64,000 nucleotides of DNA. It comes from Natrialba asiatica DSM 12278 (GTDB taxonomy: Archaea; Halobacteriota; Halobacteria; Halobacteriales; Natrialbaceae). A program made the position numbers and the translations under genes. Positions 14,148-23,515 of this stretch are shown piece after piece (the stretch's first letter is position 1; each line of letters begins with the position of its first letter). The notes beneath the pieces were generated by a model. The model was given only the letters and a program-made list of their open reading frames with translations. It did not search any database and was not told the DNA's origin. The stretch spans positions 50,430 through 114,429 of the forward strand of contig NZ_AOIO01000021.1 in assembly GCF_000337555.1 (NCBI RefSeq). Direction: 5' to 3'.

Positions 14148-14929
14148 CGATCACCCTCGGGGTCCGTCTCAGTCTCTGTATCGCCGTCCGAACCCGTCTC
14201 GGTTGCGTCTTCCGGAGGGTCCACAGGCTGAACTCGAACGGTCAAGACGCCGTTGTTGATCGCTGCTTGTCCGGTTCGGTCGGACCAGGGGACGTCGATG
14301 CGGTCGAGTTCGGTGCCGGCGACGACGATGACCAGCGTGGTATCGCTGAAGCCGACGGTGACATCGTCCGCGTCGATGTCGGCGTCGGCACCGGAGACGT
14401 CGGCGATGACGAGGAGTTCGTCGTCGTGCGTACGGGTGGTGATGTGGTGGGAGTCGGCCCGCGACGGAGTGTCCGCCGAGGACGAGTGGGCTGACGGCGT
14501 CGCCGACGGGTTCGATGGCGGCCCCGTCGAAGATGACGACCGACTTCGCCGTGTTCGCGGACGGCCCGATCGATCGTGGTCCCGATCACGGTCCCACGTC
14601 CGATCCGAATCCGTCTCACCGGGTTCGTCTTGCCGAAGTCTGTCGACCCACTCGTCGGCGAAGGATTCCCCAAACCGGGAGTCGTCGAGCAGGTCGTCAC
14701 CCGTCCGAATCGAGATACTGTAGTCGAATACGGACCGATTGCGCCCGCCTCGTCTGGCGGGTGACAGCGTGTTCGAGTTCGGATTCCGATCCAGACGATC
14801 GAGCAGTGCCCGTACCGTCGCGAGCCACCCCGTTTCCCGAGCCCGCCGCTCAGTCGGGTCGTCGTCTCCGTCGTTGCGATCGGTTCTGTCGTGCGGATCG
14901 TTCCTATCGTGTGGGTCGTCTCGGGCCAT
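14144..14929 (-). CDS. gvpH: Gas vesicle protein GvpH (Hsp20-like)
   Basis: Accessory protein of 261 residues. The N terminus carries a charged repeat (DDPHDRNDPHDRTDRND), and a long Arg/Ser-rich linker leads to a C-terminal alpha-crystallin-like domain. That domain contains HDDELLVIADVSGADADI, TTLVIVVAGTELDRIDVPW and INNGVLTVRVQP. In halobacteria GvpH is thought to act as a chaperone-like factor for other Gvps. The ATG overlaps the gvpG TGA and the stop overlaps the next start. Confidence 0.88.
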   Translation of the reverse strand: MARDDPHDRNDPHDRTDRNDGDDDPTERRARETGWLATVRALLDRLDRNPNSNTLSPARRGGRNRSVFDYSISIRTGDDLLDDSRFGESFADEWVDRLRQDEPGETDSDRTWDRDRDHDRSGRPRTRRSRSSSSTGPPSNPSATPSAHSSSADTPSRADSHHITTRTHDDELLVIADVSGADADIDADDVTVGFSDTTLVIVVAGTELDRIDVPWSDRTGQAAINNGVLTVRVQPVDPPEDATETGSDGDTETETDPEGDR

Positions 14930-15183
14930 CAGCGTTTCACCTCGACACGGCCGCTCGCGAATTGTTCGTGGACCTCTCGGGCGAGTTCGAGTTCAGCCTC
15001 GATCGTTTCCTTTCGGTCCAGGTATTCCGCTTCGGATCGTTCGCCGAGTTCGTACAGCAGCCGGTTTTCCTTGCGCTCGTCCTCGAGTGCCTCCACGTCG
15101 TACAGTTCCTGCAGCGCGAGCGAGTGCAGTGTGTCAACGATGCCGATGAGCGGCCGGAACAGAAGGTCGTCGAGAACGAACAT
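14929..15183 (-). CDS. gvpG: Gas vesicle protein GvpG
   Basis: Eighty-four residues starting MFVLDDLLFRPLIGIVDTLH. The hydrophobic N-terminal helix followed by a long charged coiled coil (ELYDVEALEDERKENRLLYE) is the GvpG pattern. The protein is one of the small essential accessory Gvps. The ATG at 15183 lies 4 nt after the gvpF stop; an upstream in-frame extension is ignored because it overlaps gvpF. Confidence 0.93.
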   Translation of the reverse strand: MFVLDDLLFRPLIGIVDTLHSLALQELYDVEALEDERKENRLLYELGERSEAEYLDRKETIEAELELAREVHEQFASGRVEVKR

Positions 15184-15187
15184 GTGA

Positions 15188-15832
15188 TCACTGGGATTGG
15201 GCCCCGATTTCGACGTTGACGAAGCTATACGGTGCGTACGGGCCGGTGTATTGGACGAGAAGGTCGTCGCCGTAGCGATCCTCGAGTCGGGCAACCGCCT
15301 CGTCGAAGGACTCGCGTTCGTCCTCGTCGACGAGGTACGACCGGTTCAACACGAGACGATCGCTGAAGCGATCGTTCTGGACCGCTTGGGCCGCGATCGG
15401 GTCGAGTTCATCGCTGACGGCGTCCTCGACCTCGTCGCGGTCGATCGAGCCGTCCTCCTGGGTGACGAGTTTGAGCCCGAGTTCGATCCGGCCCTCGATG
15501 TCGCTCATCGCTCGCCGAAACGCCGGGCGAGCGCCGCGGAGGACGTTCTTCAGCGTGCGGTCGTTCTCGAAGGCCATGCCGAACTGCATCGGGACGATGG
15601 TTTTGCCGCCGTCGTGGTCCATGATCTCCCGAAGGACGTCGTCGTGGATCTGGGCGTCCTCGTCGGTCTCTTCGGGGTCCGTGGTGTCGATGTTCGAGAC
15701 GACGGCCCCGAGCCGTCGGTGACTGACGGTGTAGACGCGGTCGGCACCGGCGACGGCGTCAGTTTCGAACTCGATGTCTCCCGTGTCGGCGGTGTTGACG
15801 ATGCCGTAGACGTACCGGTTGCTGTTGCTCAT
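15188..15832 (-). CDS. gvpF: Gas vesicle protein GvpF
   Basis: GvpF/GvpL family, 214 residues, the first gene of the leftward operon. Visible landmarks are NRYVYGIVNTADTGDIEF, the HDGGKTIVPMQFGMAFENDR segment and the terminal VQYTGPYAPYSFVNVEIG. In halobacteria GvpF binds GvpA and is needed for vesicle formation. It is shorter than GvpL because it lacks the acidic C-terminal tail. The message presumably starts within the 226-bp gap shared with gvpA. Confidence 0.95.
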   Translation of the reverse strand: MSNSNRYVYGIVNTADTGDIEFETDAVAGADRVYTVSHRRLGAVVSNIDTTDPEETDEDAQIHDDVLREIMDHDGGKTIVPMQFGMAFENDRTLKNVLRGARPAFRRAMSDIEGRIELGLKLVTQEDGSIDRDEVEDAVSDELDPIAAQAVQNDRFSDRLVLNRSYLVDEDERESFDEAVARLEDRYGDDLLVQYTGPYAPYSFVNVEIGAQSQ

Positions 15833-16058
15833 TCCTGGGTCACTCCGGCTGTAGGGCGGTCGTGGATCGGTGATCGGTCGGTAGCACGGGTTTCATGGAG
15901 AACGTAATCGTCACGGGTAGTTCGACAGCCGCTCGCCTTACCGTGGTGCTTGCAATCGCAGCGTCCGTGTCACCTGAACTCGGGAGCCGGATCAGCCGAG
16001 TCGGCTTGCAGTCGCAAAGCAAGCCGTGTTAGGAAATCGGAGTGAACCCGGAGACGTA
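15833..16058. promoter_or_regulatory. Divergent gvpF/gvpA control region
   Basis: 226 bp between the two gvp operons. It contains two copies of GCTTGCARTCGCA (15948-15960 and 16004-16016) and an 8-bp inverted repeat, CGGCTTGC/GCAAGCCG (16002-16009 and 16019-16026), overlapping the second copy. GGAG at 16050-16053 is a ribosome-binding site 5 nt before the gvpA ATG. No canonical TTTATA box is evident on either strand. Binding sites for the usual GvpE activator cannot be assigned, and no gvpE gene is present. Confidence 0.6.
15948..16016. repeat. Paired 13-bp direct repeats upstream of gvpA
   Basis: GCTTGCAATCGCA at 15948-15960 and GCTTGCAGTCGCA at 16004-16016, with 12 of 13 positions identical and a start-to-start distance of 56 bp. 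The second copy forms the left arm of the inverted repeat at 16002-16026. They look like operator sites of an unidentified regulator. Confidence 0.6.
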
Positions 16059-16346
16059 ATGGCACAACCACAACAGCGGCCTAACTCCTCAAGTCTCGCA
16101 GAGGTACTAGACCGCGTTCTCGACAAGGGCGTCGTCATCGACGTCTGGGCGCGCGTCTCCGTCGTCGGGATCGAACTCCTCACCGTCGAGGCCCGCGTCG
16201 TCGTCGCCTCCGTCGACACGTTCCTCCACTACGCGGAGGAGATCGCAAAAATTGAGCAAGCGACCGCGGACGGCGATCTCGAGGATCTCGAAGAACTCGA
16301 GGTCGAGCCGCGGCCCGAATCGTCGCCGCAATCGGCCACCGAATAA
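16059..16346 (+). CDS. gvpA: Gas vesicle structural protein GvpA
   Basis: The major shell protein that forms the ribs of the gas vesicle. The core [40 protein letters not shown] and [15 protein letters not shown] is the invariant GvpA fold. The acidic tail ([20 protein letters not shown]) makes 95 residues, longer than the usual 75-80. The start at 16059 has a GGAG ribosome-binding site. gvpN follows after 6 nt; no gvpC lies between, so the scaffolding protein on the outside of the vesicle is missing from the cluster. Confidence 0.97.
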
Positions 16347-16352
16347 TCGACG

Positions 16353-17534
16353 ATGGCCGAGGACACCTCGCGAAAGCGCAAGGTCCGCGGCAGGAAGATT
16401 CGCGGCGATCGAGAACAGAAAAAGCGACGGCGAGCGCGAAAGGAACTGGCTCGGAACGCGTCGCGAAACGGCAACCACGACGAGGCCGGCACATCCGCGA
16501 CGAACGCGTCGACCGGGGACGAGGGCGGTCATCTCGAGTCCCCAGAAGCCGTCGCTCCAGAGCCGTTCGTCGAAACCGACGCCGTCGAATCGCTTCGCGA
16601 ACGGATCACCGGCTGGCTCGCCGCCGATCAACCCGTACACCTGATCGGGCCGACGGGCTGTGGAAAGACCGCACTCGCACTTTCGGCAGCCGCAGCACGC
16701 GGCCGACCGGTCGTGCATATCAACGGCGACGAGGCCGTCGACACGGCAACACTCGTCGGAACCTACGCCGGCGGCGAACGCTACGAGGAACGCGACGAGT
16801 TCGTCAGCGGCGTGAGCAAGAAGACGCAGATCGTTCGCGACCGCTGGGTCGACAACCCGCTCTCGGCGGCGGTACGTGAGGGTGCCACGCTCGTCTACAA
16901 CGAGTTCTCCCGAAGCGATCCCGCCGCCCACAACGTCTTGCTCTCGGTGTTCGAGGAAGGCGTCCTGGAACGGCCGGGGAAGCGCGGGCGGGATAGAACG
17001 ATCGACGTGCATCCCGAGTTCCGGGCCATCCTCACGTCGAACGACGCGGAGTACGCCGGCGTCCACCGCCAGCAGGATGCGCTGCTCGACCGCGTCGTCG
17101 GGGTCCACGTCGGCCACTACGACGCGGAAACCGAGCGCGAGATCGTCCGCACTCACGTGGACGTGGACGTGGATGTGGATACCCGCGACGGCGACAGTGA
17201 CGACGGCAAGAGCAAGCGCGCGGCCGGTAACGACGAGCGCGGCGCACTCGATCCGGAAGCGATCGGGGCCGTCGTCGAGACGACGCGCACGTTGCGCGAG
17301 GAACTGCCGTTCGTCGTCGGGACGCGAGCAGCGATTACGGCGGCCAAAGGGATCGCTGTCTTCGGGTCCCAGGCTGGCGCTGAGTCGGCACAGCAACAGA
17401 CGGATGGCGGGCAGGCCACCCTCGACGACGAGTTGCTGGCAGACGTCTTCACGGACGTTCTCGGCTCGAAGCTCGCCGGCACGGAGATCGACGACGTGCA
17501 AGCGCTCCGAGAACGGATTACCGACACACTCTGA
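16353..17534 (+). CDS. gvpN: Gas vesicle protein GvpN (MoxR-type AAA+ ATPase)
   Basis: A 393-residue ATPase that promotes vesicle enlargement. A basic Arg/Lys-rich N terminus (SRKRKVRGRKIRGDREQKKR) leads to the AAA+ core with Walker A GPTGCGKT (about residues 99-106). The Walker B region is TLVYNEFSRSDPAAHNVLLS and the sensor segment is FRAILTSNDAEYAGVH. An acidic insertion (VDVDVDVDTRDGDSDDGKSK) lies before the C-terminal lid. It sits between gvpA and gvpO with gaps of 6 and 5 nt. Confidence 0.95.
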   Translation: MAEDTSRKRKVRGRKIRGDREQKKRRRARKELARNASRNGNHDEAGTSATNASTGDEGGHLESPEAVAPEPFVETDAVESLRERITGWLAADQPVHLIGPTGCGKTALALSAAAARGRPVVHINGDEAVDTATLVGTYAGGERYEERDEFVSGVSKKTQIVRDRWVDNPLSAAVREGATLVYNEFSRSDPAAHNVLLSVFEEGVLERPGKRGRDRTIDVHPEFRAILTSNDAEYAGVHRQQDALLDRVVGVHVGHYDAETEREIVRTHVDVDVDVDTRDGDSDDGKSKRAAGNDERGALDPEAIGAVVETTRTLREELPFVVGTRAAITAAKGIAVFGSQAGAESAQQQTDGGQATLDDELLADVFTDVLGSKLAGTEIDDVQALRERITDTL

Positions 17535-17539
17535 GACCA

Positions 17540-18220
17540 ATGGCCAACGCCGAGACAGCGAACGCGACGACACGGTGCAAGGCGCTCACCGCGGACGGCG
17601 AGCGCTGCTCGCGGCCAGCCCAGGACGACGGCTTTTGCTTCCAGCACGACGAGAGCGATCCCACCGTGAGCGAGGCCGACGACGCAGCCGAGGAACAGGA
17701 CGCCGACCAAGAGCCGGCTCAAGACCAAGAGCAGGATCAGGAGCAGGAGCAGGAACCGGCTCAAAACCAGGAGCAGAAAGAACCACAGGAGGAAACCCAG
17801 GCCCAGGAGCAAGAACAGGAACACGAACAAGAACAACCGCATCAAACCGACACCTCACAACCCACCTCTGAGATGGCCAGCGACGAAACAACCGACCCCG
17901 ACGCCGTCGATACCGACGAACTCGACGCCGATACCGAATCGGACGTCGACACCGACCAAATCGAGGGCGTCCTCGCGATCCGCCGAACCGTCGTCTCGAC
18001 CGCCGGTGAACTCATCGGTCACGAGTTCGACGGCGTCAGCGAAATATCGCCGACCGACGAAGGCTGGTGTGCCGTCGTCGAAGTCGTCGAGCGCTCGGCG
18101 GTCCCGGACACGCAGGACGTGCTCGGTCGGTACGAGATCGACCTCAATACGGACGGCGTCGTTCAGGGCTATCGACGCCTCGACCGATACCGGCGGGGCG
18201 ATACGACCGTATTCGAGTGA
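17540..18220 (+). CDS. gvpO: Gas vesicle protein GvpO with N-terminal zinc-finger-like extension
   Basis: The C-terminal 90 residues are GvpO: GVLAIRRTVVSTAGELIGHE, FDGVSEISPTDEGWCAVVEV, and VLGRYEIDLNTDGVVQGYRR ending in YRRGDTTVFE. Ahead of this are an acidic linker, a low-complexity Gln/Glu/Pro region (about residues 53-112, for example DQEQDQEQEQEPAQNQEQ) and an N-terminal C-x9-C-x9-C-x2-H motif (Cys13, Cys23, Cys33, His36; CKALTADGERCSRPAQ). The last resembles the small DUF5763-type zinc-binding element. Total length 226 is well above ordinary GvpO. It is the last gene of the rightward operon. Confidence 0.92.
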   Translation: MANAETANATTRCKALTADGERCSRPAQDDGFCFQHDESDPTVSEADDAAEEQDADQEPAQDQEQDQEQEQEPAQNQEQKEPQEETQAQEQEQEHEQEQPHQTDTSQPTSEMASDETTDPDAVDTDELDADTESDVDTDQIEGVLAIRRTVVSTAGELIGHEFDGVSEISPTDEGWCAVVEVVERSAVPDTQDVLGRYEIDLNTDGVVQGYRRLDRYRRGDTTVFE

Positions 18221-18465: not shown

Positions 18466-18825
18466 GTGCCTTCGCTCCCCGTTCGCGGCGTCGACGTCGG
18501 TCCCGAAACGCGGTGCGGGCACTACCGCACCGACCGAGATATCGTCTCGTTCCGATTCGACTGCTGTGACGCGTACTATCCCTGTTTTCGGTGCCACGCG
18601 GCCGTCGAAGATCACGAGGCGATCCCCTGGCCACGGAACCGGTTCGACGAGCCGTCCGTCCGCTGTGGGGCCTGTGACTCCGCGTTCACCGTCCCAACGT
18701 ACCTCGCGTGTGCGTATCGCTGTCCGAACTGTGACGCCCCCTTCAATCCCGGCTGTGCGGCGCACGCGGATCGGTACTTCGAGACGGCGAACGGGGAGGA
18801 CGATACCGGGGACGCAGACGGCTGA
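18466..18825 (+). CDS. CHY zinc finger protein
   Basis: A 119-residue protein with a CHY-type zinc cluster. The diagnostic CGHYRTDRDIVSFRFDCCDA (Cys-His-Tyr) is followed by YYPCFRCH, RCGACDSAF, YRCPNCDAPFNPGCAAH, giving enough Cys/His for three zinc sites. CHY domains occur in eukaryotic ubiquitin ligases and in stand-alone prokaryotic proteins of unknown role. It lies 245 bp after gvpO on the same strand; a link with gas vesicles is possible but unproven. Confidence 0.85.
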   Translation: MPSLPVRGVDVGPETRCGHYRTDRDIVSFRFDCCDAYYPCFRCHAAVEDHEAIPWPRNRFDEPSVRCGACDSAFTVPTYLACAYRCPNCDAPFNPGCAAHADRYFETANGEDDTGDADG

Positions 18826-18869: not shown

Positions 18870-20657
18870 TCAGTCGTCCGCGGGCGAGCGCGCCGACCGA
18901 TCCGTCTCGCCCGACCGTGATCGCTCCGATTCGGTGAGCGTCGCCTCGACGTCGGCCGCCAGGCGGTTCACGACCGCCCGCCCATCCCGTTCGCGGACGA
19001 TCAACTCGTCCGCTTCGAGTGCCGACAGGTGATGCGAGACGGTGCTCGGATCGCACTCGAGTTCATCTGCGAGTCGGCCGTTGTTCGCCTGCCCGATGGC
19101 GGCGAGTGTTTCGAGTACGTCGCGCTTGGCCGGTTCCGCCAGCGCGGCCTGCAGTTCGACCCGCGGGGAGTCGGCTGCGAGCGTCCCGTCGGCACCGGCT
19201 TCACGATCGTCAGGGTTCGTTGCCGCGTGCTCGGTGCCGGTCGCAGCCGCTTCGAGGTACAACCGGCGTTTGCCCCCGATTTTCGCGGACGAAACCAACC
19301 CTTCCTCTTCGAGGATGCGAAGGTGGTGTCGAACCGTCGACAGCGAGAGTTCGTTTCGGTCGCGGACCTGCGAGAGGTAACAGCCGGGGTCGGCTCGAAT
19401 CGTCTCGTAGACGGTCCGTCGGCGATCGTTTTCGAGCGGATCGGAGTCGTCGTAGCGGCTGTACCGAAAGATCGAGACGAGTTGCCAGGGGAGCCGAGAC
19501 GCGAGGCGGTGTAGCCGCTGGAACAGCTCGATCTGACGGACCCACGTCGTGATCGCATTGGCGACGGTCGTGACGATGCCGGTCCCGGCGGCGCTCGAAC
19601 TTGCGCCAGCACTGGCCCCGACGCCGGCTCCGGTCCCAGTCCCGAGACCGGCACCGAGTCCCGCAGTCCCCGCTGTCACCCCTGAGGCCGTGATCACCCC
19701 GAGCAGACCGATGAGTGCAGTCTCCGTCGTCGACGAGGGCAGCCTCGGCGACGCCGTCTCTGAATCGGCTGTCTCACTTCCATCGCCACGCTCACCATCG
19801 GCCGATTCGCCCGCCGTCTCGTTTCCATCACTGCCGTCCCCGAACGTGACGACGCCACCCGACGCGAGCGACGACTCCCCCTCGATCCTCGCCGCGAGGG
19901 GAAGCGCCTCGCGAGACGGCTCGGCTCTCTCGGAGCCGACGGCAGTCACCGGGTCGGTGACAGTGCCGGCACCGAACTCGAGTTCACCAGTCGCCGGGAG
20001 GTCGGTGTCTCCGCCGATCGTAGCTTCGAGTTCGGCGTGCGAGTCGAGCGCGTCCGTCTCGTCCGCGAGACGGTGCGTTTCGGTCGCCGCTGCATCTACG
20101 ACGGTCTCCGACGCCGGGACTCGGGGTGTCTCTGTCGCCGTCTTTGTCTCCGAAGCCGCCCCCTCGTCGAACGTACCGTCTCGTCGCTCACCACCGGCCG
20201 TGTCCGCTTCCGAGCGATCACCGCTCTCCGGATCGATACCGGCTGTGTCCGGACTGATGATCCCCGAACCGGCCGTTAGCGCCCCTTCACTGTCCGATTC
20301 GTACTCGCCCTCGGTCACGTCTTCGGCCGCAGCCTCCCTCTCGGACGCGGTTGCGGCGGTCGCTTCCCCCGACGCGTTGGTGCGGCCGTCCGCCGAGTTG
20401 ATATGGCGCGTTTCCGTCTCCGTAGCCACGCTATCGTTCGAGCCGTCGGACGCCGGTTCCGTCTCGTCGACCGCCGCAGTGCCGTCGGAACCGACTTCTT
20501 GCCCGTTGTCTGCCCCGGAGAGCGTCTCGGCACTCGAGGCCGTTCCTGCAGCAACACCGGCGATGCCAGCGACGCCGCTACAGAGGATTACCGCCGTGAC
20601 GACGCACACGACCGCTTGCGTCGACGGTCGCACCGGTACCGGTGCGCTCGAGGTCAT
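18870..20657 (-). CDS. Membrane-anchored protein with two winged-helix domains
   Basis: Predicted membrane-tethered regulator of 595 residues. An N-terminal hydrophobic segment (about 13-40, a signal peptide or anchor) precedes roughly 270 residues rich in Ser, Thr, Glu and Ala, likely extracytoplasmic. A second hydrophobic Gly-rich segment begins at TETALIGLLGVITASGVTAG (about 311-345). Two cytosolic winged-helix domains follow. The first (about 405-470) includes LSQVRDRNELSLSTVRHHLR; the second (about 500-570) includes LADELECDPSTVSHHLSALE. This topology suggests signal transfer from outside the cell to DNA. It is divergent from mutS. Confidence 0.82.
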   Translation of the reverse strand: MTSSAPVPVRPSTQAVVCVVTAVILCSGVAGIAGVAAGTASSAETLSGADNGQEVGSDGTAAVDETEPASDGSNDSVATETETRHINSADGRTNASGEATAATASEREAAAEDVTEGEYESDSEGALTAGSGIISPDTAGIDPESGDRSEADTAGGERRDGTFDEGAASETKTATETPRVPASETVVDAAATETHRLADETDALDSHAELEATIGGDTDLPATGELEFGAGTVTDPVTAVGSERAEPSREALPLAARIEGESSLASGGVVTFGDGSDGNETAGESADGERGDGSETADSETASPRLPSSTTETALIGLLGVITASGVTAGTAGLGAGLGTGTGAGVGASAGASSSAAGTGIVTTVANAITTWVRQIELFQRLHRLASRLPWQLVSIFRYSRYDDSDPLENDRRRTVYETIRADPGCYLSQVRDRNELSLSTVRHHLRILEEEGLVSSAKIGGKRRLYLEAAATGTEHAATNPDDREAGADGTLAADSPRVELQAALAEPAKRDVLETLAAIGQANNGRLADELECDPSTVSHHLSALEADELIVRERDGRAVVNRLAADVEATLTESERSRSGETDRSARSPADD

Positions 20658-20705
20658 GATCTGGGGTCCACTCGGTGAGCGTTCCGTATACGTTTTGTTG
20701 CACTT

Positions 20706-20729
20706 GACAATCAGAATATATTGATTGTC
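20706..20729. promoter_or_regulatory. Palindromic promoter/operator between membrane regulator and mutS
   Basis: Perfect 8-bp arms GACAATCA (20706-20713) and TGATTGTC (20722-20729) flank the AT-rich core GAATATAT. The core can serve as a TATA element in either direction: about 25 bp before the GTG at 20744 for mutS and about 60 bp before the ATG of the membrane regulator. A dyad on a TATA box is an obvious repression site. Confidence 0.55.
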
Positions 20730-20809
20730 GTTGATGACTGGGTGTGTCAGACGACAGTGTCCGACCCGTCCAGCAAGCTATTTCAGCGTCCGGCGGCCGA
20801 CCACACAGT

Positions 20810-23515
<2,706 letters not shown>

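Follow-up and report, generated by a model that had tools for sequence, protein, structure and literature searches.

Transmembrane transcription regulators (TTRs) are found in bacteria as well as in archaea, with about four of them per archaeal genome (PMC10269533). In Sulfolobus, ArnR and ArnR1 regulate the archaellum and pili (PMC6396743), and in the archaeal TrmB family, activators bind upstream of the BRE/TATA and repressors downstream of it (PMC4158304). HVO_0163 has one mention in the literature, as an ArsR-type protein that increases under oxidative stress (PMC10294847), and was judged too distant to guide functional assignment of the regulator described here. We analysed a stretch of 64,000 nucleotides from Natrialba asiatica DSM 12278 (hereafter the window), in which a regulator gene and mutS are divergent and separated by an intergenic gap of 152 bp. 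The features of this locus are:

18466..18825, plus strand: gene for a CHY zinc-finger protein
18870..20657, minus strand: gene for a haloarchaeal transmembrane one-component regulator (595 aa, ATG start)
20685..20692, minus strand: TATA-like box of the regulator core promoter, CGTATACG here and GCGTATTACG in most relatives, with a footprint in about 42 divergent loci
20705..20713, minus strand: conserved 9-bp element, TGATTGTCA on the regulator strand (consensus TGACWGTCA), which is the proximal dyad arm and lies directly upstream of the regulator BRE/TATA
20706..20729, no strand: 24-bp perfect dyad GACAATCA-8-TGATTGTC with core GAYART-N12-AYTRTC, a probable operator
20715..20721, no strand: AATATAT in the dyad spacer, with no conservation in relatives
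20769..20784, plus strand: mutS core promoter TCCAGCAAGCTATTTC
20810..23515, plus strand: mutS (901 aa, ATG at 20810; NF003810, 1018 bits), with no adjacent mutL

A gas-vesicle gene cluster adjoins the locus (window 14929-18220):

14929-15294, minus strand: GvpG
15188-15832, minus strand: GvpF/L
16026-16346, plus strand: GvpA-type protein
16353-17534, plus strand: AAA ATPase, likely GvpN
17540-18220, plus strand: GvpO with an N-terminal DUF5763 and a Q/E-rich stretch

An earlier, sequence-only reading of this DNA had described a membrane-anchored double winged-helix protein facing mutS across a 152-bp gap that holds a dyad with 8-bp arms; hydropathy, Pfam and AlphaFold agree with the first part of this description, and the dyad is indeed perfect. 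The predicted regulator is organised as follows:

residues 11-42: signal or anchor
residues 43-312: acidic segment rich in S/T/E/D, which make up 47% of its 270 residues
residues 313-334: second membrane segment (TM2), followed by a Gly/Ala-rich linker
residues 399-410: YSRYDDSDPLEN motif
residues 411-470: first winged helix (wHTH1)
residues 505-565: second winged helix (wHTH2)
C-terminus: PADD

The hydrophobic stretches at residues 11-42 and 313-334 were called as membrane segments by hydropathy, with no dedicated predictor, and the same two-segment pattern is common to most orthologs, while the YSRYDDSDPLEN motif and the terminal PADD are kept in homologs. Pfam placed the winged-helix domains at about 411-455 and 509-553, with matches to HTH_20 (E 1.7e-15), HTH_5 (E 2.8e-14) and HTH_HVO_0163_N (E 2.3e-10): both domains scored above the cut-offs for HTH_20/HTH_5, and wHTH1 also above that for HTH_HVO_0163_N. 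NF033788 was above its cut-off alongside HTH_5, which identifies an ArsR-type wHTH fold. AlphaFold models of 11 homologs (mean pLDDT 80) contained two canonical wHTH folds that resemble ArsR/SmtB structures, with CzrA (TMt 0.79) and SmtB among the good single-domain PDB matches, and the recognition helices are nearly invariant across orthologs. A Pfam search of the N-terminal segment found no sensory domain; this segment is presumably extracellular and would sense some signal. Apolipoprotein-like matches in one ortholog were taken as artefacts of low-complexity helices. One homolog (L079:2175-6776) is a reading frame of 1533 aa with about 1300 residues ahead of the winged helices.

Each of the two divergent genes has its own conserved core promoter. 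The TATA-like box of the regulator lies about 31 bp ahead of its ATG, which fits a short or absent leader, and the conserved block anchored on this gene reads, on the regulator strand, TGACTGTCAcgAAACGGAAAAAGCGTATTACG, then about 26 bp, then the ATG (TGATTGTCAAGTGCAACAAAACGTATACGG being the form of this promoter block in the window). On the mutS side, a TATTT is found about 28 bp before the ATG, as expected of a leaderless transcript, which is the commonest type in Haloferax with 72% of protein-coding transcripts (PMC4983044). When relatives were compared with mutS as the anchor, the region from about -42 to -24 (GATCCAGCAAGSTATTTC) was conserved and no conservation was found upstream of about -43; the promoter motif was present in 41 of the 42 genomes with an adjacent regulator and in all 20 genomes without it. 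A mutS start at GTG 20744 was considered and rejected, since the promoter block falls inside that extension and since relatives show a 1-bp indel there (CCAGCAAGC versus CCAGCAGC). The sequence-only reading had also proposed that the AATATAT at the centre of the dyad acts as a TATA box in both directions. The heptamer is present, but the dyad spacers of relatives are neither AT-rich nor conserved (TCCGGTAGCGCG, for example), and with nothing equivalent in relatives the AATATAT does not qualify as a conserved TATA box. Considering also that each gene carries a core promoter of its own, a shared bidirectional TATA box was rejected.

The conserved 9-bp element is locked in position to the regulator gene. 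In 25 genomes, which are related and thus not independent samples (as for all dyad and element counts given here), its distance is 59.3 ± 1.6 bp to the regulator ATG (range 55-62) and 23.8 ± 1.3 bp to the regulator TATA, while its distance to mutS varies from 66 to 1480 bp. Where the gap is expanded, to 1539 bp in Halopiger djelfimassiliensis and to 315 and 367 bp in two genomes of group g9, the element stays by the regulator. Exact matches to TGACWGTCANGAAACGG numbered seven in 125 family genomes and all seven were found at the promoter of this regulator, although they are not independent because all come from one genus group. Using the proximal arm as an anchor, we found a complementary distal arm (at least 5/6) at N=12 in 7 of 35 loci, compared with 0-2 loci at each other spacing from 2 to 30. 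Four of the N=12 pairs are perfect (GACAAT/ATTGTC, GACAGT/ACTGTC twice and GATAGT/ACTATC), and these differ on both arms yet retain symmetry. Such changes, specific to one spacing and preserving the pairing of the arms, support an inverted repeat that is bound by a protein. A TATA-anchored dyad scan over all regulators was noisier than this element-anchored test, and its perfect N=12 dyads include two unrelated sequences. Compared across relatives, then, the divergent pairing of the two genes (about 42 genomes) and the proximal arm hold up; the distal arm is recognisable only in about a fifth of the loci, being weak or absent in most others.

Altogether, these comparisons favour, with a probability of about 0.6, an arrangement in which the dyad would be the operator of the promoter of the transmembrane regulator itself and mutS would be expressed from a separate promoter. 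One winged-helix unit (or a pair of them) would occupy the proximal half-site (TGAYWRTCA), directly ahead of the BRE/TATA of the regulator, and a second unit would contact the distal arm. The most likely outcome of such binding would be autoregulation, and the element is indeed conserved at a set distance from the regulator promoter, as an autoregulatory operator should be. The operator position further hints at auto-activation, which would be favoured by analogy because a site immediately upstream of the BRE/TATA corresponds to the activator arrangement of the TrmB family. We infer both that the regulator is the protein that binds the operator and that it acts there as an activator. For mutS, transcription would start from a core promoter of its own, located 40 bp past the dyad and probably leaderless, and would be unaffected or only incidentally affected; a membrane protein bound at that distance may have a side effect on mutS.

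The most serious competitor, although itself unlikely, is that another, unlinked transcription factor binds the element and controls the regulator gene, the targets of the regulator lying elsewhere. The regulator promoters of Natronococcus, Halostagnicola and Halovivax lack the 9-bp element despite near-identical recognition helices in their regulators, which counts against the regulator as the binder and leaves room for a different one, and the pairing of protein and site was made by sequence comparison. However, the element is rare elsewhere, all of its exact long matches are at the regulator promoter, and the exact dyad is a single copy in the whole genome of the window, where GACART-N12-AYTGTC has no other occurrence either, weaker sites being outside this mapping. 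Having one strict site per genome is unusual for a transcription factor, and this also counts against binding by the regulator as the best explanation. A regulon search with GAYART-N12-AYTRTCANGAAA in 125 genomes returned one regulator promoter and one orthologous locus in three congeners without the regulator, a number of matches that is about that expected by chance. At this orthologous intergenic site (L230, L231 and L232, in congeners G006, G003 and G001), the operator pattern reads GATAGT-N12-ACTGTCACGAAA and has two genes nearby, one coiled-coil ATPase-like and one Mre11-like; it could reflect chance or a second binder.

Another possibility, which we consider improbable, is that the regulator sits at a shared dyad and controls both itself and mutS, for example as an activator or a roadblock in both directions. 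The conservation of the locus gives it some appeal. C-terminal profile matches were found in 71 of 125 family genomes, and 42 of the retrieved loci, all in Natrialbaceae, have the regulator and mutS in divergent orientation. In the regulator tree, the mutS-adjacent rows largely cluster in a single group of 53 rows (support 93/72), which also includes 11 non-adjacent ones; this pattern is consistent with an adjacency that arose once and was later abandoned in places. The order CHY-regulator-mutS recurs across genera. Moreover, a distance of 81 bp separates the dyad from the mutS ATG and one of about 40 bp separates it from the mutS promoter, and the genome has no second strict site. Against such dual control, the element is found at no fixed position relative to mutS (256, 308 and 1480 bp away in three genomes), and mutS shows no conservation beyond its own promoter block. 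Six other species of the genus lack the regulator, which is best read as a loss, and their mutS and its promoter are intact, with a CHY-like coding sequence directly before mutS where the upstream region was read. Conversely, five genomes of the Halovivax asiaticus genus group (G017 and G080-G083) gave only paralog-level MutS matches, so that the ortholog of the mutS in the window appears to be missing from them, and four of these five were seen with the regulator beside CHY. Control of mutS by the regulator, as suggested by the sequence-only reading, is thus left unsupported: the position of the element follows the regulator instead of mutS, and either gene is kept in genomes that lack the other.

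Still more doubtful is the idea that a membrane regulator responds to a signal from outside the cell or from the envelope and, through one operator, adjusts its own amount together with the expression of an unpartnered mutS, such that mismatch-repair capacity would track the environment. A second mutS, 43% identical, lies about 3 kb from mutL on contig C14 (39704-45557), and this mutL is the sole one detected in the genome. Loss of mutS/mutL results in a higher mutation rate in Haloferax volcanii and in no hypermutability in Halobacterium (PMC9997560). The link to mutation rate that had been proposed for this locus is further weakened, because the mutS in the window is not beside mutL and because mutS loss did not cause hypermutability in Halobacterium.

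Finally, that the dyad is a chance palindrome beside an ordinary divergent promoter is very improbable. Among 5000 dinucleotide-shuffled versions of the gap, 201 (4%) contain a perfect dyad with 8-bp arms and a spacer of at most 20 bp, so that the dyad alone is only mildly surprising, and the distal arm is weak in most relatives, but the significance of the dyad comes from conservation, with a proximal arm kept at a fixed position and a distal arm that recurs at a specific spacing with pairing-preserving changes.

For an uncharacterised haloarchaeal family of membrane regulators, the locus offers a conserved candidate operator that is open to testing, and very few regulators of this kind have been studied in archaea. 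Genes that share an intergenic region are readily assumed to share their control as well, an assumption that is corrected here: the comparative data give the operator to one gene, and the neighbouring repair gene mutS keeps its own promoter where the regulator is absent.

When compared with known systems, the regulator fits the TTR class (PMC10269533) on both sequence-defined features, a predicted membrane span and a DNA-binding domain in one protein. It differs from other TTRs by its long acidic low-complexity N-terminal segment with a signal or anchor and by its C-terminal tandem winged helices. Like the regulator, ArnR and ArnR1 (PMC6396743) are archaeal membrane-bound one-component proteins, and they bind inverted repeats upstream of the promoter; compared by architecture, they are unlike it, with an N-terminal HTH followed by putative HAMP and sensor domains and then a transmembrane anchor. 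The likeness to ArsR/SmtB-type proteins and to the N-terminal HTH of HVO_0163 (PF24266) is at the level of the wHTH domain, and in contrast to ArsR/SmtB proteins the regulator is membrane-anchored and carries a tandem pair of such domains. CsmR, a small 13-kDa winged-helix regulator (PMC13286277), was set aside as irrelevant. The TrmB family (PMC4158304) shares the palindromic site upstream of the BRE/TATA, the activator arrangement, but its members are cytoplasmic sugar sensors whose similarity to the regulator is limited to the wHTH domain. The protein class is therefore already known; what is new here is that a conserved putative operator has been found and attributed to the regulator.
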